The position numbers and the translations under genes were made by a program. From Gordius sp. MW1 (taxonomy: Eukaryota > Nematomorpha > Gordioida > Gordea > Gordiidae), in the NCBI GenBank assembly GCA_964036665.1, contig OZ038526.1, positions 26,784,001-26,848,000 on the forward strand: a DNA stretch of 64,000 nucleotides. Direction: 5' to 3'. Below are positions 1-57,982 of the stretch, one piece after another. The notes beneath the pieces were generated by a model that saw nothing but the letters and a program-made list of their open reading frames with translations, made no database searches and was not told the DNA's origin. Numbering within the stretch: the stretch's first letter is position 1; each line of letters starts with the position of its first letter.

Positions 1-3000
1 CGGTTGATGCTGGTGTTGAACCTGATGGACCGGTTGATGCTGGTGTTGAACCAGATGGACCGGTTGATGCTGGAGTTGGACCCGATGGATAAGTAGATGC
101 TGGTGTTGGACCTGATGGGCCTGTTGATGCTGGTGTTGGACCTGATGGACCGGTTGATGCTGGTGTTGGACCTGATGGACCAGTTGATGCTGGTGTTGGA
201 CCTGATGGACCTGTTGACGATGGAGTTAGCCCTGGAGGACAAGTTGTTGTCGGAGTGGCTGATTGACCTGTACTGGACTGTGTAGTGTCAGTGGAAGGTA
301 CAGTTGGACCTGATGGGCCGGTTGATGCTGGTGTTGGACCTGACGGACCGGTTGATGCTGGTGTTGGACCTGATGGACCGGTTGATGCTGGTGTTGGACC
401 TGATGGACCTGTTGATGCTGGGGTTGGACCAGATGGACCGGTTGATGCTGGAGTTGGACCTGATGGATAAGTAGATGCTGGTGTTGGACCTGATGGACCG
501 GTTGATGCTGGTGTTGGACCTGATGGACCGGTTGATGCTGGAGTTGGACCTGATGGACCTGTTGATGCTGGTGTTGGACCTGATGGGCCTGTTGATGCTG
601 GTGTTGGACCTGATGGACCGGTTGATGCTGGTGTTGGACCTGATGGACCGGTTGATGCTGGTGTTGGACCTGATGGACCTGTTGATGCTGGTGTTGGACC
701 AGATGGACCGGTTGATGCTGGAGTTGGACCTGATGGATAAGTAGATGCTGGTGTTGGACCTGATGGGCCGGTTGATGCTGGAGTTGGACCTGATGGATAA
801 GTAGATGCTGGTGTTGGACCTGATGGACCGGTTGATGCTGGTGTTGGACCTGATGGACCGGTTGATGCTGGAGTTGGACCTGATGGACCTGTTGATGCTG
901 GTGTTGGACCTGATGGGCCTGTTGATGCTGGTGTTGGACCTGATGGACCGGTTGATGCTGGTGTTGGACCTGATGGGCCTGTTGATGCTGGTGTTGGACC
1001 TGATGGACCGGTTGATGCTGGTGTTGGACCTGATGGACCGGTTGATGCTGGTGTTGGACCTGATGGACCGCTTGATGCTGGTGTTGGACCTGATGGGCCG
1101 GTTGATGCTGGTGTTGGACCTGTTGACGATGGAGTTAGCCCTGGAGGACAAGTTGTTGTCGGAGTGGCTGATTGACCTGTAATGGACTGTGTAGTGTCAG
1201 TGGAAGGTACAGTTGGACCTGATGGGCCAGTTGATGCTGGTGTTGGACCTGATGGACCGCTTGATGCTGGTGTTGGACCTGATGGGCCGGTTGATGCTGG
1301 TGTTGGACCTGATGGACCTGTTGACGATGGAGTTAGCCCTGGAGGACAAGTTGTTGTCGGAGTGGCTGATTGACCTGTACTGGACTGTGTAGTGTCAGTG
1401 GAAGGTACAGTTGGACCTGATGGGCCGGTTGATGCTGGTGTTGGACCTGATGGACCTGTTGACGATGGAGTTAGCCCTGGAGGACAAGTTGTTGTCGGAG
1501 TGGCTGATTGACCTGTACTGGACTGTGTAGTGTCAGTGGAAGGTACAGTTGGACCTGATGGGCCGGTTGATGCTGGTGTTGGACCTGACGGACCGGTTGA
1601 TGCTGGTGTTGGACCTGATGGACCGGTTGATGCTGGTGTAGGACCTGACGGACCGGTTGATGCTGGTGTTGGACCAGATGGACCGGTTGATGCTGGAGTT
1701 GGACCTGATGGATAAGTAGATGCTGGTGTTGGACCTGATGGCCCTGTTGATGCTGGTGTTGGACCTGATGGACCGGTTGATGCTGGTGTTGGACCTGATG
1801 GACCTGTTGATGCTGGTGTTGGACCTGACGGACCGGTTGATGCTGGTGTTGGACCTGATGGACCGGTTGATGCTGGTGTTGGACCTGATGGACCTGTTGA
1901 TGCTGGTGTTGGACCTGATGGGCCTGTTGATGCTGGTGTTGGACCAGATGGACCGGTTGATGCTGGTGTTGGACCTGATGGATAAGTAGATGCTGGTGTT
2001 GGACCTGACGGACTTGTTGATGCTGGTGTTGAACCTGATGGATAAGTAGATGCTGGTGTTGGACCTGATGGACCGGTTGATGCTGGTGTTGGACCTGATG
2101 GACCGGTTGATGCTGGTGTTGGACCTGATGGACCTGTTGATGCTGGTGTTGGACCTGACGGACCGGTTGATGCTGGTGTTGGACCTGATGGACCGGTTGA
2201 TGCTGGTGTTGGACCTGACGGACCGGTTGATGCTGGTGTTGGACCTGATGGACCTGTTGATGCTGGTGTTGGACCTGACGGACCGGTTGATGCTGGTGTT
2301 GGACCTGATGGACCGGTTGATGCTGGTGTTGGACCTGATGGACCTGTTGATGCTGGTGTTGGACCTGATGGGCCTGTTGATGCTGGTGTTGGACCTGATG
2401 GACCGGTTGATGCTGGTGTTGGACCAGATGGACCGGTTGATGCTGGTGTTGGACCTGATGGATAAGTAGATGCTGGTCTTGGACCTGACGGACTTGTTGA
2501 TGCTGGTGTTGAACCTGATGGATAAGTAGATGCTGGTGTTGGACCTGGTGGACCGGTTGATGCTGGTGTTGGACCTGATGGACCGGTTGATGCTGGTGTT
2601 GAACCTGATGGATAAGTAGATGCTGGTGTTGGACCTGATGGACCGGTTGATGCTGGTGTTGGACCTGATGGACCGGTTGATGCTGGTGTTGGACCTGATG
2701 GACCCGTTGATGCTGGTGTTGGACCTGACGGACCGGTTGATGCTGGTGTTGGACCTGATGGACCGGTTGATGCTGGTGTTGGACCTGATGGACCGGTTGA
2801 TGCTGGTGTTGAACCAGATGGACCGGTTGATGCTGGAGTTGGACCCGATGGATAAGTAGATGCTGGTGTTGGACCTGATGGGCCTGTTGATGCTGGTGTT
2901 GGACCTGATGGACCGGTTGATGCTGGTGTTGGACCTGATGGACCGGTTGATGCTGGAGTTGGACCTGATGGACCTGTTGATGCTGGTGTTGGACCTGATG

Positions 3001-6000
3001 GGCCTGTTGATGCTGGTGTTGGACCTGATGGACCGGTTGATGCTGGTGTTGGACCTGATGGGCCTGTTGATGCTGGTGTTGGACCTGATGGACCGGTTGA
3101 TGCTGGTGTTGGACCTGATGGACCGGTTGATGCTGGTGTTGGACCTGATGGGCCTGTTGATGCTGATGTTGGACCTGATGGACCGGTTGATGCTGGTGTT
3201 GGACCTGATGGACCTGTTGATGCTGGTGTTGGACCTGATGGGCCTGTTGATGCTGGTGTTGGACCTGATGGACCGGTTGATGCTGGTGTTGGACCTGATG
3301 GACCGGTTGATGCTGGTGTTGAACCTGATGGACCGGTTGATGCTGGTGTTGAACCAGATGGACCGGTTGATGCTGGAGTTGGACCCGATGGATAAGTAGA
3401 TGCTGGTGTTGGACCTGATGGGCCTGTTGATGCTGGTGTTGGACCTGATGGACCGGTTGATGCTGGTGTTGGACCTGATGGACCAGTTGATGCTGGTGTT
3501 GGACCTGATGGACCTGTTGACGATGGAGTTAGCCCTGGAGGACAAGTTGTTGTCGGAGTGGCTGATTGACCTGTACTGGACTGTGTAGTGTCAGTGGAAG
3601 GTACAGTTGGACCTGATGGGCCGGTTGATGCTGGTGTTGGACCTGACGGACCGGTTGATGCTGGTGTTGGACCTGATGGACCGGTTGATGCTGGTGTTGG
3701 ACCTGATGGACCTGTTGATGCTGGGGTTGGACCAGATGGACCGGTTGATGCTGGAGTTGGACCTGATGGATAAGTAGATGCTGGTGTTGGACCTGATGGA
3801 CCGGTTGATGCTGGTGTTGGACCTGATGGACCGGTTGATGCTGGAGTTGGACCTGATGGACCTGTTGATGCTGGTGTTGGACCTGATGGGCCTGTTGATG
3901 CTGGTGTTGGACCTGATGGACCGGTTGATGCTGGTGTTGGACCTGATGGACCGGTTGATGCTGGTGTTGGACCTGATGGACCTGTTGATGCTGGTGTTGG
4001 ACCAGATGGACCGGTTGATGCTGGAGTTGGACCTGATGGATAAGTAGATGCTGGTGTTGGACCTGATGGGCCGGTTGATGCTGGAGTTGGACCTGATGGA
4101 TAAGTAGATGCTGGTGTTGGACCTGATGGATCGGTTGATGCTGGTGTTGGACCTGATGGACCTGTTGATGCTGGTGTTGGACCTGATGGGCCTGTTGATG
4201 CTGGTGTTGGACCTGATGGACCGGTTGATGCTGGTGTTGGACCTGATGGGCCTGTTGATGCTGGTGTTGGACCTGATGGACCGGTTGATGCTGGTGTTGG
4301 ACCTGATGGACCGGTTGATGCTGGTGTTGGACCTGATGGACCGCTTGATGCTGGTGTTGGACCTGATGGGCCGGTTGATGCTGGTGTTGGACCTGATGGA
4401 CCTGTTGACGATGGAGTTAGCCCTGGAGGACAAGTTGTTGTCGGAGTGGCTGATTGACCTGTAATGGACTGTGTAGTGTCAGTGGAAGGTACAGTTGGAC
4501 CTGATGGGCCAGTTGATGCTGGTGTTGGACCTGATGGACCGCTTGATGCTGGTGTTGGACCTGATGGGCCGGTTGATGCTGGTGTTGGACCTGATGGACC
4601 TGTTGACGATGGAGTTAGCCCTGGAGGACAAGTTGTTGTCGGAGTGGCTGATTGACCTGTACTGGACTGTGTAGTGTCAGTGGAAGGTACAGTTGGACCT
4701 GATGGGCCGGTTGATGCTGGTGTTGGACCTGATGGACCTGTTGACGATGGAGTTAGCCCTGGAGGACAAGTTGTTGTCGGAGTGGCTGATTGACCTGTAC
4801 TGGACTGTGTAGTGTCAGTGGAAGGTACAGTTGGACCTGATGGGCCGGTTGATGCTGGTGTTGGACCTGACGGACCGGTTGATGCTGGTGTTGGACCTGA
4901 TGGACCGGTTGATGCTGGTGTAGGACCTGACGGACCGGTTGATGCTGGTGTTGGACCAGATGGACCGGTTGATGCTGGAGTTGGACCTGATGGATAAGTA
5001 GATGCTGGTGTTGGACCTGATGGCCCTGTTGATGCTGGTGTTGGACCTGATGGACCGGTTGATGCTGGTGTTGGACCTGATGGACCTGTTGATGCTGGTG
5101 TTGGACCTGACGGACCGGTTGATGCTGGTGTTGGACCTGATGGACCGGTTGATGCTGGTGTTGGACCTGATGGACCTGTTGATGCTGGTGTTGGACCTGA
5201 TGGGCCTGTTGATGCTGGTGTTGGACCAGATGGACCGGTTGATGCTGGTGTTGGACCTGATGGATAAGTAGATGCTGGTGTTGGACCTGACGGACTTGTT
5301 GATGCTGGTGTTGAACCTGATGGATAAGTAGATGCTGGTGTTGGACCTGATGGACCGGTTGATGCTGGTGTTGGACCTGATGGACCGGTTGATGCTGGTG
5401 TTGGACCTGATGGACCTGTTGACGATGGAGTTAGCCCTGGAGGACAAGTTGTTGTCGGAGTGGCTGATTGACCTGTACTGGACTGTGTAGTGTCAGTGGA
5501 AGGTACAGTTGGACCTGATGGGCCGGTTGATGCTGGTGTTGGACCTGATGGACCTGTTGACGATGGAGTTAGCCCTGGAGGACAAGTTGTTGTCGGAGTG
5601 GCTGATTGACCTGTACTGGACTGTGTAGTGTCAGTGGAAGGTACAGTTGGACCTGATGGGCCGGTTGATGCTGGTGTTGGACCTGACGGACCGGTTGATG
5701 CTGGTGTTGGACCTGATGGACCGGTTGATGCTGGTGTAGGACCTGACGGACCGGTTGATGCTGGTGTTGGACCAGATGGACCGGTTGATGCTGGAGTTGG
5801 ACCTGATGGATAAGTAGATGCTGGTGTTGGACCTGATGGCCCTGTTGATGCTGGTGTTGGACCTGATGGACCGGTTGATGCTGGTGTTGGACCTGATGGA
5901 CCTGTTGATGCTGGTGTTGGACCTGACGGACCGGTTGATGCTGGTGTTGGACCTGATGGACCGGTTGATGCTGGTGTTGGACCTGATGGACCTGTTGATG

Positions 6001-9000
6001 CTGGTGTTGGACCTGATGGGCCTGTTGATGCTGGTGTTGGACCAGATGGACCGGTTGATGCTGGTGTTGGACCTGATGGATAAGTAGATGCTGGTGTTGG
6101 ACCTGACGGACTTGTTGATGCTGGTGTTGAACCTGATGGATAAGTAGATGCTGGTGTTGGACCTGATGGACCGGTTGATGCTGGTGTTGGACCTGATGGA
6201 CCGGTTGATGCTGGTGTTGGACCTGATGGACCTGTTGATGCTGGTGTTGGACCTGACGGACCGGTTGATGCTGGTGTTGGACCTGATGGACCGGTTGATG
6301 CTGGTGTTGGACCTGACGGACCGGTTGATGCTGGTGTTGGACCTGATGGACCTGTTGATGCTGGTGTTGGACCTGACGGACCGGTTGATGCTGGTGTTGG
6401 ACCTGATGGACCGGTTGATGCTGGTGTTGGACCTGATGGACCTGTTGATGCTGGTGTTGGACCTGATGGGCCTGTTGATGCTGGTGTTGGACCTGATGGA
6501 CCGGTTGATGCTGGTGTTGGACCAGATGGACCGGTTGATGCTGGTGTTGGACCTGATGGATAAGTAGATGCTGGTGTTGGACCTGACGGACTTGTTGATG
6601 CTGGTGTTGAACCTGATGGATAAGTAGATGCTGGTGTTGGACCTGATGGACCGGTTGATGCTGGTGTTGGACCTGATGGACCGGTTGATGCTGGTGTTGG
6701 ACCTGATGGACCCGTTGATGCTGGTGTTGGACCTGACGGACCGGTTGATGCTGGTGTTGGACCTGATGGACCGGTTGATGCTGGTGTTGGACCTGATGGA
6801 CCTGTTGATGCTGGTGTTGGACCTGATGGGCCTGTTGATGCTGGTGTTGGACCTGATGGACCGGTTGATGCTGGTGTTGGACCTGATGGACCTGTTGATG
6901 CTGGTGTTGGACCTGATGGGCCTGTTGATGCTGGTGTTGGACCTGATGGACCGGTTGATGCTGGTGTTGAACCTGATGGACCGGTTGATGCTGGTGTTGG
7001 ACCAGATGGACCGGTTGATGCTGGTGTTGGACCTGATGGATAAGTAGATGCTGGTGTTGGACCTGACGGACTTGTTGATGCTGGTGTTGAACCTGATGGA
7101 TAAGTAGATGCTGGTGTTGGACCTGATGGACCGGTTGATGCTGGTGTTGGACCTGATGGACCGGTTGATGCTGGTGTTGGACCTGATGGACCAGTTGATG
7201 CTGGTGTTGGACCTGTTGACGATGGAGTTAGCCCTGGAGGACAAGTTGTTGTCGGAGTGGCTGATTGACCTGTACTGGACTGTGTAGTGTCAGTGGAAGG
7301 TACAGTTGGACCTGATGGGCCGGTTGATGCTGGTGTTGGACCTGACGGACCGGTTGATGCTGGTGTTGGACCTGATGGACCGGTTGATGCTGGTGTTGGA
7401 CCTGATGGACCTGTTGATGCTGGGGTTGGACCAGATGGACCAGTTGATGCTGGAGTTGGACCTGATGGATAAGTAGATGCTGGTGTTGGACCTGATGGAC
7501 CGGTTGATGCTGGTGTTGGACCTGATGGACCGGTTGATGCTGGAGTTGGACCTGATGGACCTGTTGATGCTGGTGTTGGACCTGATGGGCCTGTTGATGC
7601 TGGTGTTGGACCTGATGGACCGGTTGATGCTGGTGTTGGACCTGATGGACCGGTTGATGCTGGTGTTGGACCTGATGGACCTGTTGATGCTGGTGTTGGA
7701 CCAGATGGACCGGTTGATGCTGGAGTTGGACCTGATGGATAAGTAGATGCTGGTGTTGGACCTGATGGGCCGGTTGATGCTGGTGTTGGACCTGATGGAC
7801 CGGTTGATGCTGGTGTTGGACCTGATGGACCTGTTGATGCTGGTGTTGGACCTGATGGGCCTGTTGATGCTGGTGTTGGACCTGATGGACCGGTTGATGC
7901 TGGTGTTGAACCTGATGGACCGGTTGATGCTGGTGTTGGACCAGATGGACCGGTTGATGCTGGTGTTGGACCTGATGGATAAGTAGATGCTGGTGTTGGA
8001 CCTGACGGACTTGTTGATGCTGGTGTTGAACCTGATGGATAAGTAGATGCTGGTGTTGGACCTGATGGACCGGTTGATGCTGGTGTTGGACCTGATGGAC
8101 CGGTTGATGCTGGTGTTGAACCTGATGGACCAGTTGATGCTGGTGTTGGACCTGTTGACGATGGAGTTAGCCCTGGAGGACAAGTTGTTGTCGGAGTGGC
8201 TGATTGACCTGTACTGGACTGTGTAGTGTCAGTGGAAGGTACAGTTGGACCTGATGGGCCGGTTGATGCTGGTGTTGGACCTGACGGACCGGTTGATGCT
8301 GGTGTTGGACCTGATGGACCGGTTGATGCTGGTGTTGGACCTGATGGACCTGTTGATGCTGGGGTTGGACCAGATGGACCAGTTGATGCTGGAGTTGGAC
8401 CTGATGGATAAGTAGATGCTGGTGTTGGACCTGATGGACCGGTTGATGCTGGTGTTGGACCTGATGGACCGGTTGATGCTGGTGTTGGACCTGATGGACC
8501 TGTTGATGCTGGTGTTGGACCTGACGGACCGGTTGATGCTGGTGTTGGACCTGATGGACCGGTTGATGCTGGTGTTGGACCTGACGGACCGGTTGATGCT
8601 GGTGTTGGACCTGATGGACCTGTTGATGCTGGTGTTGGACCTGACGGACCGGTTGATGCTGGTGTTGGACCTGATGGACCGGTTGATGCTGGTGTTGGAC
8701 CTGATGGACCTGTTGATGCTGGTGTTGGACCTGATGGGCCTGTTGATGCTGGTGTTGGACCTGATGGACCGGTTGATGCTGGTGTTGGACCAGATGGACC
8801 GGTTGATGCTGGTGTTGGACCTGATGGATAAGTAGATGCTGGTGTTGGACCTGACGGACTTGTTGATGCTGGTGTTGAACCTGATGGATAAGTAGATGCT
8901 GGTGTTGGACCTGATGGACCGGTTGATGCTGGTGTTGGACCTGATGGACCGGTTGATGCTGGTGTTGGACCTGATGGACCCGTTGATGCTGGTGTTGGAC

Positions 9001-12000
9001 CTGACGGACCGGTTGATGCTGGTGTTGGACCTGATGGACCGGTTGATGCTGGTGTTGGACCTGATGGACCTGTTGATGCTGGTGTTGGACCTGATGGGCC
9101 TGTTGATGCTGGTGTTGGACCTGATGGACCGGTTGATGCTGGTGTTGGACCTGATGGACCTGTTGATGCTGGTGTTGGACCTGATGGGCCTGTTGATGCT
9201 GGTGTTGGACCTGATGGACCGGTTGATGCTGGTGTTGAACCTGATGGACCGGTTGATGCTGGTGTTGGACCAGATGGACCGGTTGATGCTGGTGTTGGAC
9301 CTGATGGATAAGTAGATGCTGGTGTTGGACCTGACGGACTTGTTGATGCTGGTGTTGAACCTGATGGATAAGTAGATGCTGGTGTTGAACCTGATGGACC
9401 GGTTGATGCTGGTGTTGGACCTGATGGACCGGTTGATGCTGGTGTTGGACCTGATGGACCAGTTGATGCTGGTGTTGGACCTGTTGACGATGGAGTTAGC
9501 CCTGGAGGACAAGTTGTTGTCGGAGTGGCTGATTGACCTGTACTGGACTGTGTAGTGTCAGTGGAAGGTACAGTTGGACCTGATGGGCCGGTTGATGCTG
9601 GTGTTGGACCTGACGGACCGGTTGATGCTGGTGTTGGACCTGATGGACCGGTTGATGCTGGTGTTGGACCTGATGGACCTGTTGATGCTGGGGTTGGACC
9701 AGATGGACCAGTTGATGCTGGAGTTGGACCTGATGGATAAGTAGATGCTGGTGTTGGACCTGATGGACCGGTTGATGCTGGTGTTGGACCTGATGGACCG
9801 GTTGATGCTGGAGTTGGACCTGATGGACCTGTTGATGCTGGTGTTGGACCTGATGGGCCTGTTGATGCTGGTGTTGGACCTGATGGACCGGTTGATGCTG
9901 GTGTTGGACCTGATGGACCGGTTGATGCTGGTGTTGGACCTGATGGACCTGTTGATGCTGGTGTTGGACCAGATGGACCGGTTGATGCTGGAGTTGGACC
10001 TGATGGATAAGTAGATGCTGGTGTTGGACCTGATGGGCCGGTTGATGCTGGTGTTGGACCTGATGGACCGGTTGATGCTGGTGTTGGACCTGATGGACCT
10101 GTTGATGCTGGTGTTGGACCTGATGGGCCTGTTGATGCTCGTGTTGGACCTGATGGACCGGTTGATGCTGGTGTTGAACCTGATGGACCGGTTGATGCTG
10201 GTGTTGGACCAGATGGACCGGTTGATGCTGGTGTTGGACCTGATGGATAAGTAGATGCTGGTGTTGGACCTGACGGACTTGTTGATGCTGGTGTTGAACC
10301 TGATGGATAAGTAGATGCTGGTGTTGGACCTGATGGACCGGTTGATGCTGGTGTTGGACCTGATGGACCGGTTGATGCTGGTGTTGGACCTGATGGACCA
10401 GTTGATGCTGGTGTTGGACCTGTTGACGATGGAGTTAGCCCTGGAGGACAAGTTGTTGTCGGAGTGGCTGATTGACCTGTACTGGACTGTGTAGTGTCAG
10501 TGGAAGGTACAGTTGGACCTGATGGGCCGGTTGATGCTGGTGTTGGACCTGACGGACCGGTTGATGCTGGTGTTGGACCTGATGGACCGGTTGATGCTGG
10601 TGTTGGACCTGATGGACCTGTTGATGCTGGGGTTGGACCAGATGGACCAGTTGATGCTGGAGTTGGACCTGATGGATAAGTAGATGCTGGTGTTGGACCT
10701 GATGGACCGGTTGATGCTGGTGTTGGACCTGATGGACCGGTTGATGCTGGTGTTGGACCTGATGGACCTGTTGATGCTGGTGTTGGACCTGACGGACCGG
10801 TTGATGCTGGTGTTGGACCTGATGGACCGGTTGATGCTGGTGTTGGACCTGACGGACCGGTTGATGCTGGTGTTGGACCTGATGGACCTGTTGATGCTGG
10901 TGTTGGACCTGACGGACCGGTTGATGCTGGTGTTGGACCTGATGGACCGGTTGATGCTGGTGTTGGACCTGATGGACCTGTTGATGCTGGTGTTGGACCT
11001 GATGGGCCTGTTGATGCTGGTGTTGGACCTGATGGACCGGTTGATGCTGGTGTTGGACCTGATGGACCTGTTGATGCTGGTGTTGGACCTGATGGGCCTG
11101 TTGATGCTGGTGTTGGACCTGATGGACCGGTTGATGCTGGTGTTGGACCTGATGGACCGGTTGATGCTGGTGTTGGACCTGATGGACCTGTTGATGCTGG
11201 TGTTGGACCTGACGGACCGGTTGGTGCTGGTGTTGGACCTGATGGACCGGTTGATGCTGGTGTTGGAGACGGACCGGTTGATGCTGGTGTTGGACCTGAT
11301 GGACCTGTTGATGCTGGTGTTGGACCTGATGGGCCTGTTGATGCTGGTGTTGGACCTGATGGACCGGTTGATGCTGGTGTTGGACCAGATGGACCGGTTG
11401 ATGCTGGTGTTGGACCTGATGGATAAGTAGATGCTGGTGTTGGACCTGACGGACTTGTTGATGCTGGTGTTGAACCTGATGGATAAGTAGATGCTGGTGT
11501 TGGACCTGATGGACCGGTTGATGCTGGTGTTGGACCTGATGGACCGGTTGATGCTGGTGTTGGACCTGATGGACCTGTTGATGCTGGTGTTGGACCTGAC
11601 GGACCGGTTGATGCTGGTGTTGGACCTGATGGACCGGTTGATGCTGGTGTTGGACCTGATGGACCTGTTGATGCTGGTGTTGGACCTGATGGGCCTGTTG
11701 ATGCTGGTGTTGGACCTGATGGACCTGTTGATGCTGGTGTTGGACCTGATGGGCCTGTTGATGCTGGTGTTGGACCTGATGGACCGGTTGATGCTGGTGT
11801 TGGACCAGATGGACCGGTTGATGCTGGAGTTGGACCTGATGGATAAGTAGATGCTGGTGTTGGACCTGATGGACCGGTTGATGCTGGTGTTGGACCTGAT
11901 GGACCGGTTGATGCTGGAGTTGGACCTGATGGACCTGTTGATGCTGGTGTTGGACCTGATGGGCCTGTTGATGCTGGTGTTGGACCTGATGGACCGGTTG

Positions 12001-15000
12001 ATGCTGGTGTTGGACCAGATGGACCGGTTGATGCTGGTGTTGGACCTGATGGATAAGTAGATGCTGGTGTTGGACCTGACGGACTTGTTGATGCTGGTGT
12101 TGAACCTGATGGATAAGTAGATGCTGGTGTTGGACCTGATGGACCGGTTGATGCTGGTGTTGGACCTGATGGACCTGTTGATGCTGGTGTTGGACCTGAT
12201 GGGCCTGTTGATGCTGGTGTTGGACCTGATGGACCGGTTGATGCTGGTGTTGGACCTGATGGACCTGTTGATGCTGGTGTTGGACCTGATGGGCCTGTTG
12301 ATGCTGGTGTTGGACCTGATGGACCGGTTGATGCTGGTGTTGGACCTGATGGACCGGTTGATGCTGGTGTTGGACCTGATGGACCTGTTGATGCTGGTGT
12401 TGGACCTGACGGACCGGTTGGTGCTGGTGTTGGACCTGATGGACCGGTTGATGCTGGTGTTGGAGACGGACCGGTTGATGCTGGTGTTGGACCTGATGGA
12501 CCTGTTGATGCTGGTGTTGGACCTGACGGACCGGTTGATGCTGGTGTTGGACCTGATGGACCGGTTGATGCTGGTGTTGGACCTGATGGACCTGTTGATG
12601 CTGGTGTTGGACCTGATGGGCCTGTTGATGCTGGTGTTGGACCTGATGGACCGGTTGATGCTGGTGTTGGACCAGATGGACCGGTTGATGCTGGTGTTGG
12701 ACCTGATGGATAAGTAGATGCTGGTGTTGGACCTGACGGACTTGTTGATGCTGGTGTTGAACCTGATGGATAAGTAGATGCTGGTGTTGGACCTGATGGA
12801 CCGGTTGATGCTGGTGTTGGACCTGATGGACCGGTTGATGCTGGTGTTGGACCTGATGGACCTGTTGATGCTGGTGTTGGACCTGACGGACCGGTTGATG
12901 CTGGTGTTGGACCTGATGGACCGGTTGATGCTGGTGTTGGACCTGATGGACCTGTTGATGCTGGTGTTGGACCTGATGGGCCTGTTGATGCTGGTGTTGG
13001 ACCTGATGGACCTGTTGATGCTGGTGTTGGACCTGATGGGCCTGTTGATGCTGGTGTTGGACCTGATGGACCGGTTGATGCTGGTGTTGGACCAGATGGA
13101 CCGGTTGATGCTGGAGTTGGACCTGATGGATAAGTAGATGCTGGTGTTGGACCTGATGGGCCTGTTGATGCTGGTGTTGGACCTGATGGACCGGTTGATG
13201 CTGGTGTTGGACCTGATGGACCGGTTGATGCTGGTGTTGAACCTGATGGACCGGTTGATGCTGGTGTTGGACCAGATGGACCGGTTGATGCTGGTGTTGG
13301 ACCTGATGGATAAGTAGATGCTGGTGTTGGACCTGACGGACTTGTTGATGCTGGTGTTGAACCTGATGGATAAGTAGATGCTGGTGTTGGACCTGATGGA
13401 CCGGTTGATGCTGGTGTTGGACCTGATGGACCGGTTGATGCTGGTGTTGGACCTGATGGACCAGTTGATGCTGGTGTTGGACCTGTTGACGATGGAGTTA
13501 GCCCTGGAGGACAAGTTGTTGTCGGAGTGGCTGATTGACCTGTACTGGACTGTGTAGTGTCAGTGGAAGGTACAGTTGGACCTGATGGGCCGGTTGATGC
13601 TGGTGTTGGACCTGACGGACCGGTTGATGCTGGTGTTGGACCTGATGGACCGGTTGATGCTGGTGTAGGACCTGACGGACCGGTTGATGCTGGTGTTGGA
13701 CCAGATGGACCGGTTGATGCTGGAGTTGGACCTGATGGATAAGTAGATGCTGGTGTTGGACCTGATGGCCCTGTTGATGCTGGTGTTGGACCTGATGGAC
13801 CGGTTGATGCTGGTGTTGGACCTGATGGACCTGTTGATGCTGGTGTTGGACCTGACGGACCGGTTGATGCTGGTGTTGGACCTGATGGACCGGTTGATGC
13901 TGGTGTTGGACCTGATGGACCTGTTGATGCTGGTGTTGGACCTGATGGGCCTGTTGATGCTGGTGTTGGACCAGATGGACCGGTTGATGCTGGTGTTGGA
14001 CCTGATGGATAAGTAGATGCTGGTGTTGGACCTGACGGACTTGTTGATGCTGGTGTTGAACCTGATGGATAAGTAGATGCTGGTGTTGGACCTGATGGAC
14101 CGGTTGATGCTGGTGTTGGACCTGATGGACCGGTTGATGCTGGTGTTGGACCTGATGGACCTGTTGATGCTGGTGTTGGACCAGATGGACCGGTTGATGC
14201 TGGAGTTGGACCTGATGGATAAGTAGATGCTGGTGTTGGACCTGATGGACCGCTTGATGCTGGTGTTGGACCTGACGGACCGGTTGATGCTGGTGTTGGA
14301 CCAGATGGACCGGTTGATGCCGGTGTTGGACCTGATGGGCCGGTTGATGCTGGTGTTGGACCTGATGGACCGGTTGATGCTGGTGTTGGACCTGATGGAC
14401 CGGTTGATGCTAGTGTTGGACTTGATGGACCTGTTGATGCTGGTGTTGGACCAGATGGACCGGTTGATGCTGGAGTTGGACCTGATGGATAAGTAGATGC
14501 TGGTGTTGGACCTGACGGACCTGTTGATGTTGGTGTTGGACCTGATGGACCGGTTGATGCTGGAGTTGGACCTGATGGGCCGGTTGATGCCGGTGTTGGA
14601 CCTGATGGGCCGGTTGATGCTGGTGTTGGACCTGTTGATGCTGGTGTTGGACCAGATGGACCGGTTGATGCTGGAGTTGGACCTGATGGATAAGTAGATG
14701 CTGGTGTTGGACCTGTTGGACAGGTTGATGCTGGAGTTGGACCTGATGGATAAGTAGATGCTGGTGTTGGACCTGATGGACCTGTTGACGATGGAGTTAG
14801 CCCTGGAGGACAAGTTGTTGTCGGAGTGGCTGATTGACCTGTACTGGACTGTGTAGTGTCAGTGGAAGGTACAGTTGGACCTGATGGGCCGGTTGATGCT
14901 GGTGTTGGACCTGATGGACCGCTTGATGCTGGTGTTGGACCTGATGGGCCGGTTGATGCTGGTGTTGGACCTGATGGACCTGTTGACGATGGAGTTAGCC

Positions 15001-18000
15001 CTGGAGGACAAGTTGTTGTCGGAGTGGCTGATTGACCTGTACTGGACTGTGTAGTGTCAGTGGAAGGTACAGTTGGACCTGATGGGCCGGTTGATGCTGG
15101 TGTTGGACCTGACGGACCGGTTGATGCTGGTGTTGGACCTGATGGACCGGTTGATGCTGGTGTTGGACCTGACGGACCGGTTGATGCTGGTGTTGGACCA
15201 GATGGACCGGTTGATGCTGGAGTTGGACCTGATGGATAAGTAGATGCTGGTGTTGGACCTGATGGGACTGTTGATGCTGGTGTTGGACCTGATGGACCGG
15301 TTGATGCTGGTGTTGGACCTGATGGACCTGTTGATGCTGGTGTTGGACCTGACGGACCGGTTGATGCTGGTGTTGGACCTGATGGACCGGTTGATGCTGG
15401 TGTTGGACCTGATGGACCTGTTGATGCTGGTGTTGGACCTGATGGGCCTGTTGATGCTGGTGTTGGACCTGATGGACCGGTTGATGCTGGTGTTGGACCT
15501 GATGGACCGGTTGATGCTGGTGTTGGACCTGATGGACCTGTTGATGCTGATGTTGGACCAGATGGACCGGTTGATGCTGGAGTTGGACCTGATGGATAAG
15601 AAGATGCTGGTGTTGGACCTGATGGGCCGGTTGATGCTGGTGTTGGACCTGACGGACCGCTTGATGCTGGTGTTGGACCAGATGGACCGGTTGATGCTGG
15701 AGTTGGACCTGATGGATAAGTAGATGCTGGTGTTGGACCTGATGGACCTGTTGATGCTGGTGTTGGACCAGATGGACCGGTTGATGCTGGAGTTGGACCT
15801 GATGGATAAGTAGATGCTGGTGTTGGACCTGATGGACCGCTTGATGCTGGTGTTGGACCTGACGGACCGGTTGATGCTGGTGTTGGACCTGATGGACCGG
15901 TTGATGCTGGTGTTGGACCTGTTGATGCTGGTGTTGGACCTGATGGACCTGTTGATGCTGGTGTTGGACCAGATGGAGCGGTTGATTCTGGAGTTGGACC
16001 TGATGGACCTGTTGATGCTGGTGTTGGACCTGACGGACCGGTTGATGCTGGTGTTGGACCTGATGGACCGGTTGATGCTGGTGTTGGACCTGATGGACCG
16101 CTTGATGCTGGTGTTGGACCTGATGGGCCGGTTGATGCTGGTGTTGGACCTGATGGACCGGTTGATGCTGGTGTTGGACCTGATGGACCGGTTGATGCTG
16201 GTGTTGGACCTGATGGACCTGTTGATGCTGGTGTTGGACCAGATGGACCGGTTGATGCTGGAGTTGGACCTGATGGATAAGTAGATGCTGGTGTTGGACC
16301 TGACGGACCTGTAGATGCTGGTGTTGGACCTGATGGACCTGTTGATGCTGGAGTTGGACCTGATGGACCGCTTGATGCTGGTGTTGGACCTGATGGGCCG
16401 GTTGATGCTGGTGTTGGACCTGATGGACCGGTTGATGCTGGTGTTGGACCTGATGGACCGGTTGATGCTGGTGTTGGACCAGATGGACCGGTTGATGCTG
16501 GAGTTGGACCCGATGGATAAGTAGATGCTGGTGTTGGACCTGATGGGCCTGTTGATGCTGGTGTTGGACCTGATGGACCGGTTGATGCTGGTGTTGCACC
16601 TGATGGACCAGTTGATGCTGGTGTTGGACCTGATGGACCTGTTGACGATGGAGTTAACCCTGGAGGACAAGTTGTTGTCGGAGTGGCTGATTGACCTGTA
16701 ATGGACTGTGTAGTGTCAGTGGAAGGTACAGTTGGACCTGATGGGCCGGTTGATGCTGGTGTTGAACCTGACGGACCGGTTGAAGCTGGTGTTGGACCTG
16801 ATGGACCGGTTGATGCTGGTGTTGGACCTGATGGACCTGTTGATGCTGGGGTTGGACCAGATGGACCGGTTGATGCTGGAGTTGGACCTGATGGATAAGT
16901 AGATGCTGGTGTTGGGCCTGATGGACCGGTTGATGCTGGTGTTGGACCTGATGGACCGATTGATGCTGGAGTTGGACCTGATGGACCAGTTGATGCTGGT
17001 GTTGGACCAGATGGACCGGTTGATGCTGGAGTTGGACCTGATGGATAAGTAGATGCTGGTGTTGGACCTGATGGGCCTGTTGATGCTGGTGTTGGACCTG
17101 ATGGACCGGTTGATGCTGGTGTTGGACCTGATGGACCGGTTGATGCTGGTGTTGAACCTGATGGACCGGTTGATGCTGGTGTTTGACCAGATGGACCGGT
17201 TGATGCTGGAGTTGGACCCGATGGATAAGTAGATGCTGGTGTTGGACCTGATGGGCCTGTTGATGCTGGTGTTGGACCTGATGGACCGGTTGATGCTGGT
17301 GTTGGACCTGATGGACCAGTTGATGCTGGTGTTGGACCTGATGGACCTGTTGACGATGGAGTTAGCCCTGGAGGACAAGTTGTTGTCGGAGTGGCTGATT
17401 GACCTGTAATGGACTGTGTAGTGTCAGTGGAAGGTACAGTTGGACCTGATGGGCCGGTTGATGCTGGTGTTGGACCTGACGGACCGGTTGATGCTGGTGT
17501 TGGACCTGATGGACCGGTTGATGCTGGTGTTGGACCTGATGGACCTGTTGATGCTGGGGTTGGACCAGATGGACCGGTTGATGCTGGTGTTGGACCTGAT
17601 GGACCGGTTGATGCTGGTGTTAGACCTGATGGACCGGTTGATGCTGGTGTTGGACCTGATGGACCTGTTGATGCTGGTGTTGGACCAGATGGACCGGTTG
17701 ATGCTGGAGTTGGACCTGATGGATAAGTAGATGCTGGTGTTGGACCTGACGGACCTGTAGATGCTGGTGTTGGACCTGATGGACCTGTTGATGCTGGAGT
17801 TGGACCTGATGGACCGCTTGATGCTGGTGTTGGACCTGATGGGCCGGTTGATGCTGGTGTTGGACCTGATGGACCGGTTGATGCTGGTGTTGGACCTGAT
17901 GGACCGGTTGATGCTGGTGTTGAACCTGATGGATAAGTAGATGCTGGTGTTGGACCTGATGGGCCTGTTGATGCTGGTGTTGGACCTGATGGACCGGTTG

Positions 18001-19668
18001 ATGCTGGTGTTGGACCTGATGGACCGGTTGATGCTGGAGTTGGACCTGATGGACCAGTTGATGCTGGTGTTGGACCAGATGGACCGGTTGATGCTGGAGT
18101 TGGACCTGATGGATAAGTAGATGCTGGTGTTGGACCTGATGGGCCTGTTGATGCTGGTGTTGGACCTGATGGACCGGTTGATGCTGGTGTTGGACCTGAT
18201 GGACCGGTTGATGCTGGTGTTGGACCTGATGGACCTGTTGATGATGGAGTTAGCCCTGGAGGACAAGTTGTTGTCGGAGTAGCTGATTGACCTGTAATGG
18301 ACTGTGTAGTGTCAGTGGAAGGTACAGTTGGACCTGATGGGCCGGTTGATGCTGGTGTTGGACCTGACGGACCGGTTGATGCTGGTGTTGGACCTGATGG
18401 ACCGGTTGATGCTGGTGTTGGACCTGATGGACCTGTTGATGCTGGGGTTGGACCAGATGGACCGGTTGATGCTGGAGTTGGACCAGATGGATAAGTAGAT
18501 GCTGGTGTTGGACCTGATGGACCGGTTGATGCTGGTGTTGGACCTGATGGACCGGTTGATGCTGGAGTTGGACCTGATGGACCAGTTGATGCTGGTGTTG
18601 GACCAGATGGACCGGTTGATGCTGGAGTTGGACCTGATGGATAAGTAGATGCTGGTGTTGGACCTGATGGGCCTGTTGATGCTGGTGTTGGACCTGATGG
18701 ACCGGTTGATGCTGGTGTTGGACCTGATGGACCGGTTGATGCTGGTGTTGGACCTGATGGACCTGTTGATGCTGGTGTTGGACCTGATGGGCCGGTTGAT
18801 GCTGGTGTTGGACCTGATGGACCTGTTGATGCTGGTGTTGGACCTGAAGGATAAGTTGATGCTGGTGTTGGACCTGATGGACCTGTTGATGCTGGTGTTG
18901 GACCTGATGGATAAGTTGATGCTGGTGTTGGACCTGATGGACCGGTTGATGCTGGTGTTGGACCTGATGGACCGGTTGATGCTGGTGTTGGACCTGATGG
19001 ACCGGTTGATGCTGCTGTTGGACCTGATGGTCCTGTTGATGCTGGTGTTGGACCTGATGGGCCGGTTGATGCTGGTGTTGGACCTGTTGATGCTGGTGTT
19101 GGACCTGTTGATGCTGGTGTTGGACCTGATGGACCGGTTGATGCTGGTGTTGGACCTGATGGGCCGGTTGATGCTGGTGTTGGACCTGATGGACCGGTTG
19201 ATGCTGGTGTTGGACCTGATGGATAAGTAGATGCTGGTGTTGGACCTGATGGACCGGTTGATGCTGGCGTTGGACCAGATGGACCGGTTGATGCTGGTGT
19301 TGGACCTGATGGACCGGTTGATGCTGGTGTTGGACCTGATGGATAAGTAGATGCTGGTGTTGGACCTGATGGACCTGTTGATGATGCTGGTATTGAACCA
19401 GATGGACCGGTTGATGCTGGTGTTGGACCTGATGGGCCTGTTGATGCAGGTGTTGGACCTGATGGGCCTGTTGATGCTGGTGTTGGACCTGATGGATAAG
19501 TAGATGCTGGTGTTGGTCCTGATGGAAAAGTAGATGCTGGTGATGGACCGGTTGATGCTGGTGTTGGACCTGATGGGCCGGTTGACGCTGGTGTTGGACC
19601 TGATGGATAGGTTGATGCTGGTGTTGGACCTGATGGATAAATTGATGCTGGTGTTGCACTAGAGGAAC
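1..19668 (-). repeat. Giant coding tandem array, 30-bp unit encoding [10 protein letters not shown]
   Basis: About 650 units of a 30-bp repeat (minus strand GGTCCATCAGGTCCAACACC then AGCATCAACC) fill 19.7 kb without an intron. Only minus frame A ([10 protein letters not shown]) stays open throughout. The other minus frames ([10 protein letters not shown] and [10 protein letters not shown]) are closed by stops inside each spacer. The plus frames are closed wherever the variant GGATAAGTAGATG occurs, which reads simply as ThrTyrPro on the minus strand. Every length variant I found is a multiple of three: 3-nt losses near 11268 and 12464, 9-nt losses near 1110, 7210, 14632 and 19535, and a 3-nt gain near 19381. 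Substitutions are mostly conservative (Pro to Ser or Leu; Thr-Tyr-Pro variants). Together these argue that frame A is translated and under constraint. The array continues past position 1. Confidence 0.88.
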
Positions 19669-22600
19669 CTGATCATTATTCAAAAAAATATATAAATACG
19701 CTTTTAACCGTTTATATATAAAAGAACATTCACTATTTAGAATTAAAAATAATATTGCTTACTGGAGATTTCACTGTGAGGTTGGCATATCATTTTATCC
19801 AAATCTTTATATTATTAAATACAATGTTATGAAAAAGATTAAATCCAATATATGTACAAAAAATGATCTTATAATTAAAAACTAGTTTTAAATGAGCACT
19901 AGAAATAATAGGTTATTTAATGTTGTGACTCTTTATGAATATATTTTTTTCGAATCAATTTTTCTACCTTTTGGTTCTTCAATAATCTTTACGATGGATC
20001 GCATAAAGAGACCTGTCAAAGCAAAGGTCATATAATTATACTAATAAATGATGTCAAGGCTCGGAGAATAAAAATATCTTTATTATGGTGCATTAGGGAA
20101 TAATTCAAGACATACAAATGTTGTATTTCAAACTTACAATGAACTCTGTCGCCTCTGATATCGCAAGTGAAAACTGTAATATATAAAAAAAATAATTGTA
20201 CCATCATATCCCTTTTATACTAAAAAAATATGCTTTTTAATAAAACAAACCTAGGAAATCTTTCATTTTATTTGTTGATAGCCATATATTTTGTCCAACT
20301 TTTTTCCCATATATTTTTTCCCCTTAATTGTTTAAAATCTTTAAAAGTTATAAGTTCTTAATAAACTTGTCAACTGCAACTCCAATTGCCATATTTTTTT
20401 GAAATTTAGTATTTTGGTTTTTATAATAAGACAAAAAGGAAGATTAAGATATAAAATCGACTCAAACTCATACTCATTATCTTAGACATTATTCTTAATT
20501 CAATTTTCACCTCTTAATCATATGTACCGTTCTACAATTAATTTGCCATAATTTTTTCACTTGAAAACGGTACTATAAAAATAAAATTGATCAAAAACTG
20601 GACCCTTACAGTAGGTCCAATCGGGGTAAGTCATAATCCAGGCGTCGTAGAGACAAGGAGGAACAAAACTTTTCAGGGCGACCATAAAACATGGACACAT
20701 GCTCTTGTACACGGAGAAAACAACTACTTTAATATCTTGGTTATCGCACTGATAATTGGATTTCACATTTTTGCAACGGTAGGTGAAGATGTATATGGGT
20801 ATGTTGTTTAGCGTTTTTTGGTAAAACACCGATATTTTTCCTATGCCGAAGTTTAGATAAAAATTAATTTGGTTAATTAGCAAAAACTTGTGGAAATTAA
20901 AGCCAGGGTAAATTTATCAAGTAAATGTACCATTTCTATCAGTTGGGTCGTTGTTTGAAGTTAGCGGACTGAGTAAGCTTCCGTCAGCTGAGTACTTCAA
21001 GAGAGAGAGGGAAAAACGTCCGAAATATCCTTGGCTTAAAGTGTTCATAAGAGATTAGATTTTAAAAATATGGACAAAAGAAAATATCAAAAGTATTGAT
21101 AAAAACTAAAATATTCATAATTACTTATGCGCGATTGATGTATACACCATGGATTTGTTGTCAAAAATTTCCAAATTTTCGTATATATCTGTGCTATTCG
21201 AAGTTGCGCCATCGAATATACCGACAGAATGCCAGGACTTGTATAGCAACTAATTAATTGGTCCCAATAGTAATTTGATTATTTAAAAAACCTAAACTCT
21301 ATTTATATGATGTTAATTATATTAAATATAAATATTTTGTTGTTGCTTTTATTTTTATTTATTATTATTGAATAATTATATTTAAGTGGCATAAACGAAA
21401 ACTGAAATTGTAAATTAAATCAATTATTTTACTTTGTTTAAGTTCCCTGCCATTTTGGTTTTATTTTTATATTTTTAAATAACAAAATTTGCTGTAGGAT
21501 CTAATAACAAATTATTCATCCAGTGGCTCAATTAAAAAGTGATATGGTTTTACATTATCCCAGTCGACGGGAACGCTAGGTAAATTTTTTGGGTAGCATT
21601 GTCTAACGCTTGTTACAGTCAAATCTAATTAAGAATAATATAGTTATATTATTCAACAGCTTATTTACCATAAACTGTTATCTTGACTTTAATCGTCGCC
21701 GTGATTTGTTTTGCTGTATAAATTGATACATTTAAAATAAACATCATTCCCACTATTTATTCTTCGAATCGATTGAATTAATTGAATTATAGATGACTAT
21801 AGCATTTATTAAATGGTTTAATTAAATAATTTTTAATAATTTTATACTAATAAAATATTACCGTTAAGTAAATTTTTGGCAGTTATAAGTCCCATTAATG
21901 CATCGCCTATAAATTTTTGCAATGATTAGGTAATCGTATATAAAATTATTTGTGTTAAAATAAAGCTACTATTTATCACTTGGGAAAGTAGTTGGAATAT
22001 TCAGACTTTTCAGCAAGGTGTTCACTAAAATTCAAAAAAATACATAGAAGATTATTTTATTAAGCAAATCGCAAATAAATCACGGTATTACTTATGTTGG
22101 CAACTCTTTCACTCAAAAAGCGATTCACATCTAAATTTTTAAAAATAATTTCAAGTTTTTTTCATTGTTAGTTGTTAACAAAAAATAGCTTTTGTCACTG
22201 AATAATTTTTACCATTTACGGCATTAGGTCCGTTCACTCTGGTTTTCAGTTGATCAGCTAAAAAAAGGGTTTGTATTATTTTTAGTGTTTCTCAATAATG
22301 TTTTAAATATTAAATATCTTTAAAATGTTACTGTATTGCCCCATTTTGACGATTGTAGCTTTTTCTGTAACTATGACAAAATCAAACAAATAAATTGTAC
22401 AACAGCTAAAAATACATAAGTTTAATTATTTTTTAACATCAAAATCAAATTATGTTATTTTTTAAGTACACGCCAAACACAATATATATTCATTATAAAC
22501 TAGACTTACCTATTCCGGTTGGAGTCTTTAAACCGTTTAGACCTGTAAAGTAAAAAATTATGATATACTCAGAGACGACCACGTTAAATATATAAAGTAA

Positions 22601-23156
22601 TAATATGTGATAACACACATCGGCAAATATAGCATCCAGAGCTATCCGCCATAAACCCATTGGCACAATTCAATTTGCATTTCGGAGGGCACGGAACTAA
22701 TAAAAATAAAAAGTAATTTATGTTGTGATTAACAATAAAAAGTCTAGAAATAAAAATAAATAGTTAAAATTACAACTACTTTTTACATTTCCTTACATCG
22801 TTATAGCCGAGAAAGGGCAGACCCACTCCATTTATTTAAAAAAAAATTTAGAGGAATTACCGTAAAAATTTTAAATTTCTACCCATAATTGAACCTCGCC
22901 CCCCTTCCCTAAATCAAATCATATCTAGCCCCATGTCGCCTTAAAACATTAGGCGTCTGGTATATACTATTTAATAAATCATTGACTTACTATCTTCGCT
23001 TTGTGCCATAGCAAAACCTGTATAAAATATATATTTTAAACATGTCATATAAATGATTTTATTAAATTTTTGATATAAATACTTACTTAAAAAGGAGACA
23101 CTTATGCATACGAGCAAAATGGGATGCGATTTAAGCAAGTTAAATGGTCCCGTCAT
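1..23156 (-). CDS. Secreted giant mucin-like protein with antistasin-like N-terminal domain (partial, 3' end outside window)
   Basis: The gene model is mine, from splice signals and reading frame. Exons: 23156-23087, 23017-22991, 22696-22619, 22542-22510, 22257-22213, 22130-22092, 22024-21980, 21906-21862, 21713-21669, 21624-21554, 21249-21222, 20987-20931, 20173-20138, 20012-19968 and 19668-1 (open at the edge). All junctions are GT-AG and the 14 leading exons (664 nt) deliver frame +1 into the giant exon. Exon 1 starts with ATG and encodes a basic/hydrophobic signal peptide ([10 protein letters not shown], then [11 protein letters not shown]), with probable cleavage near FAMA-QSED in exon 2. 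Exon 3 is an antistasin-like cysteine module. Exons 4-14 give short segments of about 9-24 residues with few cysteines. The last exon is Pro/Thr/Ser-rich decapeptide repeats, expected to be densely O-glycosylated outside the cell. I infer a secreted mucin, for example in mucus, cuticle or glue. No transmembrane segment is visible in the window. No named orthologue is recognised, and the middle exons 10-13 are the least certain. Confidence 0.72.
222..18333 (-). repeat. Twenty cysteine-bearing spacers (about 92 nt each) inside the mucin array
   Basis: Twenty near-identical spacers interrupt the decamer array. On plus coordinates they lie near 222-305, 1124-1214, 1321-1412, 1459-1551, 3516-3608, 4402-4497, 4601-4693, 4741-4833, 5416-5509, 5556-5648, 7213-7309, 8154-8250, 9482-9578, 10424-10516, 13486-13578, 14785-14876, 14981-15073, 16642-16735, 17349-17444 and 18236-18333. 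In frame A each encodes [17 protein letters not shown] followed by [12 protein letters not shown]. Each carries one cysteine in an otherwise cysteine-free array and keeps the frame. Spacing ranges from about 100 bp to 3 kb. The single cysteine could support intermolecular disulfides or marks a diverged older repeat type. That function is inferred. Confidence 0.85.
19968..22542 (-). other. Series of phase 1-1 mini-exons between the antistasin exon and the giant mucin exon
   Basis: Ordered along the minus strand, lengths are 33, 45, 39, 45, 45, 45, 71, 28, 57, 36 and 45 nt. All are phase 1-1 except the 71/28 pair, which together are also phase 1-1. Donors are good (GTAAGT, GTAAAA, GTAATA and similar) and acceptors are typical. 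Products include [56 protein letters not shown] and [14 protein letters not shown]. Any subset could be spliced out in frame. I do not recognise a folded domain in these segments; several look amphipathic. A C-x8-C pair is made by the 36-nt exon with the first residue of the next. Confidence 0.66.
20610..20786 (-). other. SUEL/Gal_Lectin-like open segment, not fitted into the gene model
   Basis: Read on the minus strand, this segment gives [19 protein letters not shown] and later [15 protein letters not shown] then TYC. The C-x8-C, then an Ile/Val strand and Tyr, then C-x3-DA-x-IM, resemble the rhamnose-binding (SUEL) lectin domain found in latrophilins and egg lectins. It ends at a strong donor (T|GTAAGG, phase 1) that would join the 36-nt exon in frame. 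No acceptor in phase 1 is visible upstream; ATAG at about 20841 gives phase 2. It may be an alternative exon with an unseen micro-exon, a relic, or a chance resemblance. Confidence 0.3.
22619..22696 (-). other. Antistasin-like domain exon (exon 3 of the mucin gene)
   Basis: This exon has a clean acceptor (TTTTATTAG) and a donor splitting a Cys codon (T|GT). It encodes [14 protein letters not shown], then [11 protein letters not shown] with a final Cys completed by the next exon. The spacing C-x3-C-x3-C-x3-F-x6-GC-x2-C-x-C matches the antistasin family of small cysteine-rich serine-protease-inhibitor modules. Only one module is seen. Inhibitory activity depends on the reactive loop and cannot be claimed. 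Both flanking splice phases are 1, so the exon can be skipped without a frame change. Confidence 0.75.
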
Positions 23157-56616: not shown

Positions 56617-56794
56617 TTTCTTTCTCTAAGTAGAAGAGATGAGGTCGGGAGAGGCGTTAGATTTGGCAGATATATCCACTGAAGTCCCAGCAGTCGTTTA
56701 GGCCACAGGCCCATGGAATGATTTTTACACCGTTGGGTCTTTTACCGTCAGTGGAGCTTAGGCCAGCGAACATTCTGGCGCGGTCGATAGGATT

Positions 56795-57982
56795 ATGATT
56801 GCCGATTCGGACAATGAAAAACTGGGGAGAACTACATTAGCCAATTTCGATTCAACGCAAGACGATATCGAATTATATATCAATGACGCAAAACTCGATA
56901 TTGCAGGTATATCTTCGAATTCGGCAAAGAAAAAGCTGATTAGAGCTTATTTTGAGTTGGCAAATTTAGAAAAATTATCCCAATTCCTATATCCGAAATT
57001 ATTCAAGGACTCGGAATGGGAAGAAATCCTGTGTGCCATAAGTAAAATTTTTAAGAAAAAGGTTACATCTTTTTCAGTCAGGATGGATCTCATGAGATCA
57101 AAACGAACATCTGGTGAGTCAATTTCCTGTAATTTCAAAACAGATGTTGAATCTCGTATAAGGGATCAACTCATTTTTGGAGCAGGCATTCCTCGATTAG
57201 AATTGGAAATAAAAACCAACTATCCACACTGCGACGAGAAGGACGGAACGCCCCTAGCATAGAGCAAGGTGCTAAATGGCCTTGACGTTTGAAAGGGCCG
57301 ATACGGAGATTCTAGAGGCGTAAGAGGTAGTACACAAGAATTCTGAATTCTACAATAATTCGAATGAAGAGTGTTATAAGATTACTATTAACGGAAACCT
57401 CAATTGTGGACGTTTTGGTCAACAGCATCTGCTTTGTAGGAATTGCCATAATAAAAGTCATTATGCGCGATGTTGTAGGGAAGACCCTAAGATTCAAAAG
57501 ATTGATTTCAACGGAGTCGACGGCGATAATGCTCCATTGATTCGATCAATCACATTAAACGCCGGGGGCGTCGAGCGGTCATTGAATTAAAACTTGATGG
57601 AATTCGTACTCTTATGGACTACGACACTGGAGCTCAAGTTTCTATAATTAATAGTAATTTGTGGAAGAAAATTGGGTCTCCAGAAATTAAATCGATCATA
57701 TCGCCCATGTTGTACGGTAATACTACCCTAGAGGTTTTAGGCGAGACAATTATGCAAGTGCAAGTTGGGTCACAAACTAAAACCTTAACGGCTCTAGTAA
57801 GCAAAAAATATGACGTACCGCTTTTTGGATTGCCATGGAGCATAGCTTTTAAGTTTGCCTTGCCACCAATAGTAAAGGTTCAGAAGTTAAATTTATTGGA
57901 CGAGAATTCATTTATCTCAAAAATTGGAGCAAAACGTTGGAGGCTTGATGGAGCAAGGACGAACGCGACAAAGGCATCTTAA
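56795..57982 (+). pseudogene. Degraded Ty3/gypsy-like gag-protease remnant
   Basis: Three consecutive open stretches in two frames. 56795-57262 is gag-like (about 155 residues, charged, no motif). 57324-57590 carries a zinc knuckle CRNCHNKSHYARCC (C-x2-C-x4-H-x4-C). 57596-57982 is a retropepsin with active site DTGAQVSII, a following LWKKIGSP segment and the flap/C-terminal VPLFGLPW. The knuckle and protease frames differ by one near 57585. No reverse transcriptase, RNase H or integrase follows and no LTR was found, so the element is broken. It is described only as a relic. Confidence 0.68.

Follow-up and report, generated by a model that had tools for sequence, protein, structure and literature searches.

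Horsehair worms are thread-like parasites of insects and other arthropods. In the genome of one of them, Gordius sp. MW1 (assembly GCA_964036665.1; 211.8 Mb, 12 contigs), a stretch of 64,000 nucleotides on contig OZ038526.1 (here C8; 37,431,996 bases), positions 26,784,001 to 26,848,000 and referred to below as the window, opens with almost 20 kb of a 30-bp tandem repeat, which raises the question of whether this array is an untranslated satellite or part of a gene. The analysis indicated that the array is very probably the coding part of a mucin-like gene on the minus strand, because the open frame, the exon model, the two ends of the array and a paralogue all fit this reading. We consider it likely that the gene encodes a secreted, mucin-like protein of about 14,000 residues, whose transcription and translation are predicted from the genome sequence.

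The original prediction, made from the letters of the window, held that positions 1 to 19668 form one coding exon of about 650 decapeptide units and that only one of the six frames is open across it. The results agreed with both statements. The minus-strand frame that starts at 19666 contains no stop in 6,555 codons, whereas the other two minus frames contain 22 and 21 stops and the three plus frames 106, 1138, and 98. Tandem Repeats Finder (TRF) reported a period of 30 with 660.6 copies at window positions 1-19656. Four 10-kb stretches to the left of the window were then read, and the frame stayed free of stops down to C8:26763391. The whole exon, the 17th of the gene, covers C8:26803668-26763409 (40,260 nt, 13,419 codons, no stops); it runs about 20 kb past the window edge and is about twice as long as had been claimed, the window (minus strand, 1..19668) holding about half of it. 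The acceptor AG lies at 19670-19669, and exon 16 ends in phase 1, so that its last base and bases 19668-19667 form a junction Ser codon and the open frame begins at 19666, exactly as the prediction had required of this acceptor. At the other end, the exon was closed at the donor AGCAG/gtctac, with a stop codon six codons beyond it.

The predicted length variation of the array in steps of three bases was also borne out. With twelve-mers and fifteen-mers present at least 100 times in the full exon as seeds, the spacings between successive copies were multiples of three in every case (30,438 spacings from 88 twelve-mers and 28,438 from 96 fifteen-mers). In-frame stops and frameshifts, named beforehand as evidence against a coding array, were looked for along its whole length, and none was found. 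The spacer described below breaks the repeat register of a wraparound alignment, and seed spacings and units matched by Hamming distance were used instead.

The array has an internal order. In the window part, 590 units were split off, and 427 of them are exact copies of the commonest decapeptide. In the whole genome, a 26-base segment of the unit occurred 425 times, on one strand only, and the count within exon 17 was also 425; therefore, the unit as written is confined to this exon. The repeat is punctuated by 42 similar spacers with one Cys each, 20 of them in the window, and several spacer-to-spacer distances recur (46, 66, 296, 306, and 686 residues), indicating a higher-order structure. 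The composition extends the Pro/Thr/Ser domain of more than 6500 residues that had been proposed for one intronless exon: of the 13,419 residues, 5,611 are Ser or Thr (42%) and 3,773 are Pro (28%), with 43 Cys and 143 Tyr. The only charged residues are 44 Asp, 1 Glu, and 3 Arg, and Lys, Asn, His, Trp, and Met do not occur; because there is no Asn, the array has no N-glycosylation site. The bare chain of the array has a computed mass of 1.17 MDa. A long tandem-repeat domain rich in Pro, Thr, and Ser (PTS) is one of the features of mucins in the broad sense, and the array has one.

Upstream of the array, 16 short exons (27-231 nt) between window positions 23156 and 19763 join in frame without stops through 15 AG acceptors and 16 GT donors. 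Most of them run from phase 1 to phase 1, and together they encode 360 residues and the junction Ser ahead of the array. All lie on the minus strand. The coding part of exon 1 (70 nt, 23087..23156) carries the start codon and a hydrophobic N-terminus that, judged by eye, is a probable signal peptide. It is followed by exon 2 (27 nt, 22991..23017) and exon 3 (78 nt, 22619..22696), which encodes an antistasin domain (PF02822; 27.9 bits against a cut-off of 21.2, profile positions 1-26 of 26, residues 35-59 of the spliced product). After exon 4 (33 nt, 22510..22542) come the linker exons 5 (45 nt, 22213..22257), 6 (39 nt, 22092..22130), 7 (45 nt, 21980..22024), 8 (45 nt, 21862..21906), and 9 (45 nt, 21669..21713). 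An N-terminal end domain begins in exon 10 (71 nt, 21554..21624; phase 1 in, 0 out) and continues through exon 11 (125 nt, 21125..21249), which contains a W-H-S-V stretch, exon 12 (104 nt, 20931..21034), and exon 13 (231 nt, 20610..20840). The last of these is its most conserved part, with 53% identity to the paralogue described below and 34% to the C-terminal copy of the domain. Exons 14 (36 nt, 20138..20173), 15 (45 nt, 19968..20012), and 16 (42 nt, 19763..19804; phase 1 in and out, donor gtaagc, acceptor aaag) lead to the array.

In the N-terminal product of 384 residues, antistasin alone passed its Pfam cut-off, and neither this product nor the four end-domain sequences gave a Pfam match above cut-off for the N-terminal end domain. 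When the N-terminal 362 residues were compared with 5.8 billion proteins, none of 3,653 candidates reached E<=10 in a search that considered proteins of 0.55-1.75 times the query length and thereby excluded giant homologues. Across the genome, antistasin gave at least 77 matches, many of them tightly clustered (for example C5:4181078-4190259 and C3:9201652-9235528), and the open frames that hold them reach 505 residues.

The exons that follow downstream, at C8:26763307-26759000, carry the end domain a second time. The two copies are 31% identical over 162 residues (E=1e-22) and have the same order of splice phases (1-0, 0-2, 2-1, 1-1). With this part, the gene model reaches about 14,000 residues, its C-terminal end not being closed. 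Five candidate micro-exons of the form KAxTTTxAG at C8:26758361-26757788 were left out of the model, since an AG immediately in front is missing in two of them. A possible tail micro-exon matches in this gene and in the paralogue (CACCAGCTACATCAGTCCCAA / CACCAATCACAACCCCAA, each between AG and GT), at C8:26757488-26757468 (positions 3488-3468 of stretch L010) and at C8:28720600-28720583, respectively.

Genome-wide, the main exon of the end domain gave seven matches at E<=1, six on C8 and one on C3. The six on C8 comprise two in this gene, two in the paralogue, and two at 28.674 and 28.678 Mb. The last two (C8:28674302-28677926) are separated by 3.4 kb, which leaves no room for a giant array, and may represent a relative that lacks the mucin part. 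Judged by eye, the end domain is similar to the second half of retinol-binding protein 4 (RBP4). A profile alignment with RBP4 over 135 columns (hhalign probability 2%, E 0.024, score 20.8) places the W-H-S-V stretch on the G-x-W stretch and Y-x-C-x8-C on Y-x-C-x8-C. Column-shuffled controls had means near 13, with 1 of 200 and 2 of 200 shuffles on either side reaching 20.8, and the reversed profile scored 13.75. No Pfam lipocalin match was obtained at E<=10 for the four end-domain sequences, and PDB profile searches at E<=10 returned no match with a four-row profile and then 13 matches, the best at E 0.59 and none of them a lipocalin. A lipocalin-like end domain is thus a lead, as yet unproven.

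A paralogue (paralogue B) is located about 2 Mb away on the same strand, at C8:28.72-28.81 Mb. It is 62% identical in the antistasin exon, 53% in the front domain over the main exon, and 49% in the back domain to the back copy of the giant-exon gene. Its array consists of 38 open PTS blocks over about 75 kb, amounting to 21,853 codons, a figure that takes in some intron read-through. Both splice sites could be placed in 34 of the 38 blocks. Each of these 34 exons has a length divisible by three and no stop in the spliced phase, and together they amount to 53,862 nt (17,954 codons), although they are amplified copies and not independent of one another. Among 33 intervals between blocks, 29 are 348-bp introns and 2 are introns of 347 bp, and the remaining two (2,913 and 1,978 bp) hold blocks without both splice sites set. 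The introns of equal length have a mean identity of 99.3% over 407 pairs, with a lowest value of 62%. At 28.825 Mb there is a second antistasin exon; in the sequence read there, no array goes with it.

The pattern of variation within the array was analyzed on 1,222 units matched without regard to amino acids (91% of the exon, in a single register); the array copies are not independent, and the P values that follow are rough. Non-consensus bases filled 364 cells at the first codon position, 234 at the second, and 1,420 at the third, out of 12,220 cells each. At third positions, 12 of the 30 possible base alleles were present in at least 1% of units, compared with 8 of 60 at the other two positions (Fisher P=0.007). 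Of the codon variants with 15 or more copies, 6 change the amino acid and 10 are silent; among rarer variants, none of them a stop, the numbers are 29 and 13 (Fisher P=0.038). Three rare variants that differ from every common codon by more than one base are omitted from the latter count; including them gives 32 to 13 (P 0.033). Spacer starts account for three of the common variants, of which two change the amino acid and one is silent, each with 41 copies. Amino-acid change thus seems to be filtered during the spread of a variant, as would be expected if selection at the protein level limited which array variants spread.

Several observations weigh against the proposed gene, and some of them are what an untranslated satellite, open merely through amplification of a stop-free 30-bp unit, would produce. 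Only 4 of the 90 single-base changes of the unit create a stop, and the absence of stops among the 42 rare variant types has a chance probability of about 0.15, so zero stops alone are weak evidence of coding. The rare variants, at 29 to 13 against a neutral 56 to 30, are near neutral and not depleted of amino-acid changes. In the full exon, the sister sense frames carry 50 and 43 stops, but 43 of the 50 and 42 of the 43 lie in or beside copies of one spacer; because they are mostly tied to a spacer copied 42 times, they amount to few independent events and make a weaker contrast. The donor core GTRA is absent from the whole of exon 17, which speaks for the gene model; as the unit has GT only before CC, however, this is a single feature of the unit rather than a series of independent events. 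Stronger evidence for coding comes from the third-position excess and from the in-frame coding exons at both ends of the array. Since these flanking exons match the array in phase, and a paralogue on the same plan has resolved array exons that are all divisible by three, a satellite appears very improbable. The softest step of the gene model is the join from the array to the back end, as the donor of exon 17 is weak; if it were unused, the reading frame would close after six more codons, and the second end domain would have to be assigned elsewhere. Two further points bear on the mucin assignment: Gly, at about 18% of the array, is high for a classic mucin, and no domain of gel-forming mucins (VWD, C8, CysD, cystine-knot) was found in Pfam scans of the 384-residue product and the end domains, none of the five Pfam families listed for the four end-domain sequences being of this kind.

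The high Gly content, together with regular PSGP stretches, 143 Tyr, and a size like that of spider aggregate spidroins, would also suit a structural or adhesive silk, glue, or cuticle protein with little glycosylation. We regard this as unlikely in view of the Ser and Thr content beside Pro, the few charged residues, and the absence of spidroin domains; neither the N- nor the C-terminal spidroin domain was among the Pfam matches at E<=1 for the N-terminus or at E<=10 for the end domains. A somewhat greater chance, though still a minor one, attaches to a real gene with a wrongly assembled length, its array collapsed or expanded, or to a sequenced allele that is one of many lengths. Here the longest exact internal repeat found in the array, 1,581 nt, cuts both ways: identical repeats of this extent could mislead an assembly, but they are shorter than usual long reads, the frame is intact throughout, and the contig with the array spans 37.4 Mb. 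Human mucin alleles, in the available part of one study, vary several-fold in length (PMC13345508). With respect to the site of use, a coat or secretion by which the parasitic juvenile hides from the immune system of its host would fit nematomorph life within an arthropod. Antistasin-type inhibitors of leeches act on clotting-type proteases, which can be counted in its favour; no sequence feature, however, points to the juvenile, and we consider this use rather doubtful. A secreted mucin-like protein remains the preferred reading of the gene.

The rest of the window and the surrounding genome contain other features. A dispersed family of 105-130-bp tandem units (GGCCAATGGTCATTTTT...CAGCAGCCAGC) was found in at least four places, at window positions 26885-27857, 42408-43741, and 62981-63977 and around 7000-8100 of stretch L010; one site lies in a large intron of the C-terminal part of the giant gene. 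On the minus strand at about 31600-53400, many exon-sized open frames look like one HEAT-repeat gene, perhaps HEATR5-like; three pieces of this region were scanned and gave no Pfam match. An apparently uninterrupted hAT-type transposase lies at 48025-49863 on the plus strand (612-codon frame, stop to stop), with DUF659 and hAT dimerisation domains above the Pfam cut-off and a BED zinc finger just below it. Retroelement-like frames at 56762-57982 on the plus strand gave weak aspartyl-protease matches below the Pfam cut-off. The mitochondrial COX1 (contig C12, code 5) is 95% identical to that of Gordius sp. VVA-2019, 87% to that of Gordionus alpestris, and 80-81% to those of two further nematomorphs, and the other proteins among 120 listed reach at most 67%. 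The genome is therefore that of a horsehair worm, Gordius or a close relative; a leech, suggested by the antistasin domain, was rejected on the COX1 comparison. Beyond C12, COX1 gave 23 further matches on other contigs (C8:2829490-2830827 and others on C1, C3, C4, C5, and C8), one of them full-length with about 98% DNA identity. These copies are either insertions of mitochondrial DNA into the nuclear genome or mitochondrial sequence that the assembly put in the wrong place.

Compared with known systems, the size of the exon is exceptional but not unique. The original prediction had called it exceptional for any animal gene, which calls for some moderation. Large repeat exons are usual for mucins, and the longest predicted allele of human MUC12, which according to the same preprint contains the largest human exon, encodes 23,080 residues (PMC13345508), so that no record can be claimed. 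The spider glue protein gene AgSp1 has 42,270 bp of coding sequence over two exons of similar size (PMC6553539). According to the accessible parts of these sources, the 40,260-nt exon exceeds the longest variable number tandem repeat (VNTR) allele of MUC4 (27,843 bp; PMC13345508) and either exon of AgSp1 (PMC6553539). With the vertebrate VNTR mucins (MUC12, MUC4, MUC16), the Gordius gene shares PTS tandem repeats within one large exon. It differs from them in that no SEA, EGF, VWD, or CysD domain was among the Pfam matches obtained, and in its antistasin and new end domains, its decapeptide unit with a Cys spacer, and its phylum. AgSp1 and AgSp2 are likewise giant repetitive secreted proteins and have already been compared with mucins, but as described in the part of the study available they are without Cys-rich regions between the glycosylated parts (PMC6553539), in contrast to the 42 single-Cys spacers here. 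The antistasin family is represented by one PF02822 domain over the cut-off, differing in that this 26-residue module fronts a giant mucin-like chain. As far as our searches reach, given a protein search that excluded giants by length and a literature limited to open licences, the end architecture and the phylum are new; in the open-licence literature, Nematomorpha and mucin are mentioned jointly in 2 papers, and judging by title and abstract neither of them deals with worm mucins.

The predicted order of domains is a signal peptide, the antistasin domain, short linkers, the new Cys-bearing end domain, the 13,419-residue Pro/Thr/Ser/Gly array, and the second end domain with a tail. Such a chain would enter the secretory pathway, where many of the 5,611 Ser and Thr residues may be O-glycosylated and the chain would swell to an extended, hydrated polymer. 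Chains could be joined by disulphides through the 42 Cys spacers and at the Cys-bearing ends, and the antistasin domain may shield the resulting gel from proteases or act as an extra disulphide module. Unequal exchange or gene conversion, acting in three-base steps, would account for both the growth of the array and its uniformity.

Where such a polymer would be used can be approached through the biology of the worms. Live Gordius chiashanus bear a viscous mucus-like cover, for which a role in dehydration tolerance has been suggested; in the accessible text of that study the cover is also noted in Acutogordius taiwanensis and not in Chordodes formosanus (PMC7311483). We tentatively propose the mucus-like coat of the Gordius body surface as the most likely product, at somewhat less than even chances. 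The matrix of the egg strings is the next most likely and a less direct candidate; Gordius egg strings have been described in a text whose available part does not contain the words mucus and gel (PMC6892959).

More broadly, and more speculatively, nematomorphs may own a class of giant secreted mucins in which PTS arrays of 13,000 to about 20,000 residues are capped by a front antistasin module and, at both ends, by a lineage-specific, perhaps lipocalin-derived, domain. The two paralogues would then represent opposite splicing solutions for a coding array of 40-75 kb, namely a single 40-kb exon without a donor-like core and 38 amplified exon-intron blocks with near-identical introns, and their products would form the polymer of the Gordius coat, for which a part in surviving desiccation has been suggested. 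In an animal whose genome measures 212 Mb, an uninterrupted coding exon of 40 kb puts the upper limits of exon recognition, transcription, and translation to the test, and a pair of paralogues with the same ends, one with 38 blocks and the other with one exon, offers a natural experiment on the retention or loss of introns in giant coding arrays. If the proposed reading is true, the gene would provide a molecular candidate for a visible trait, the mucus coat of Gordius.

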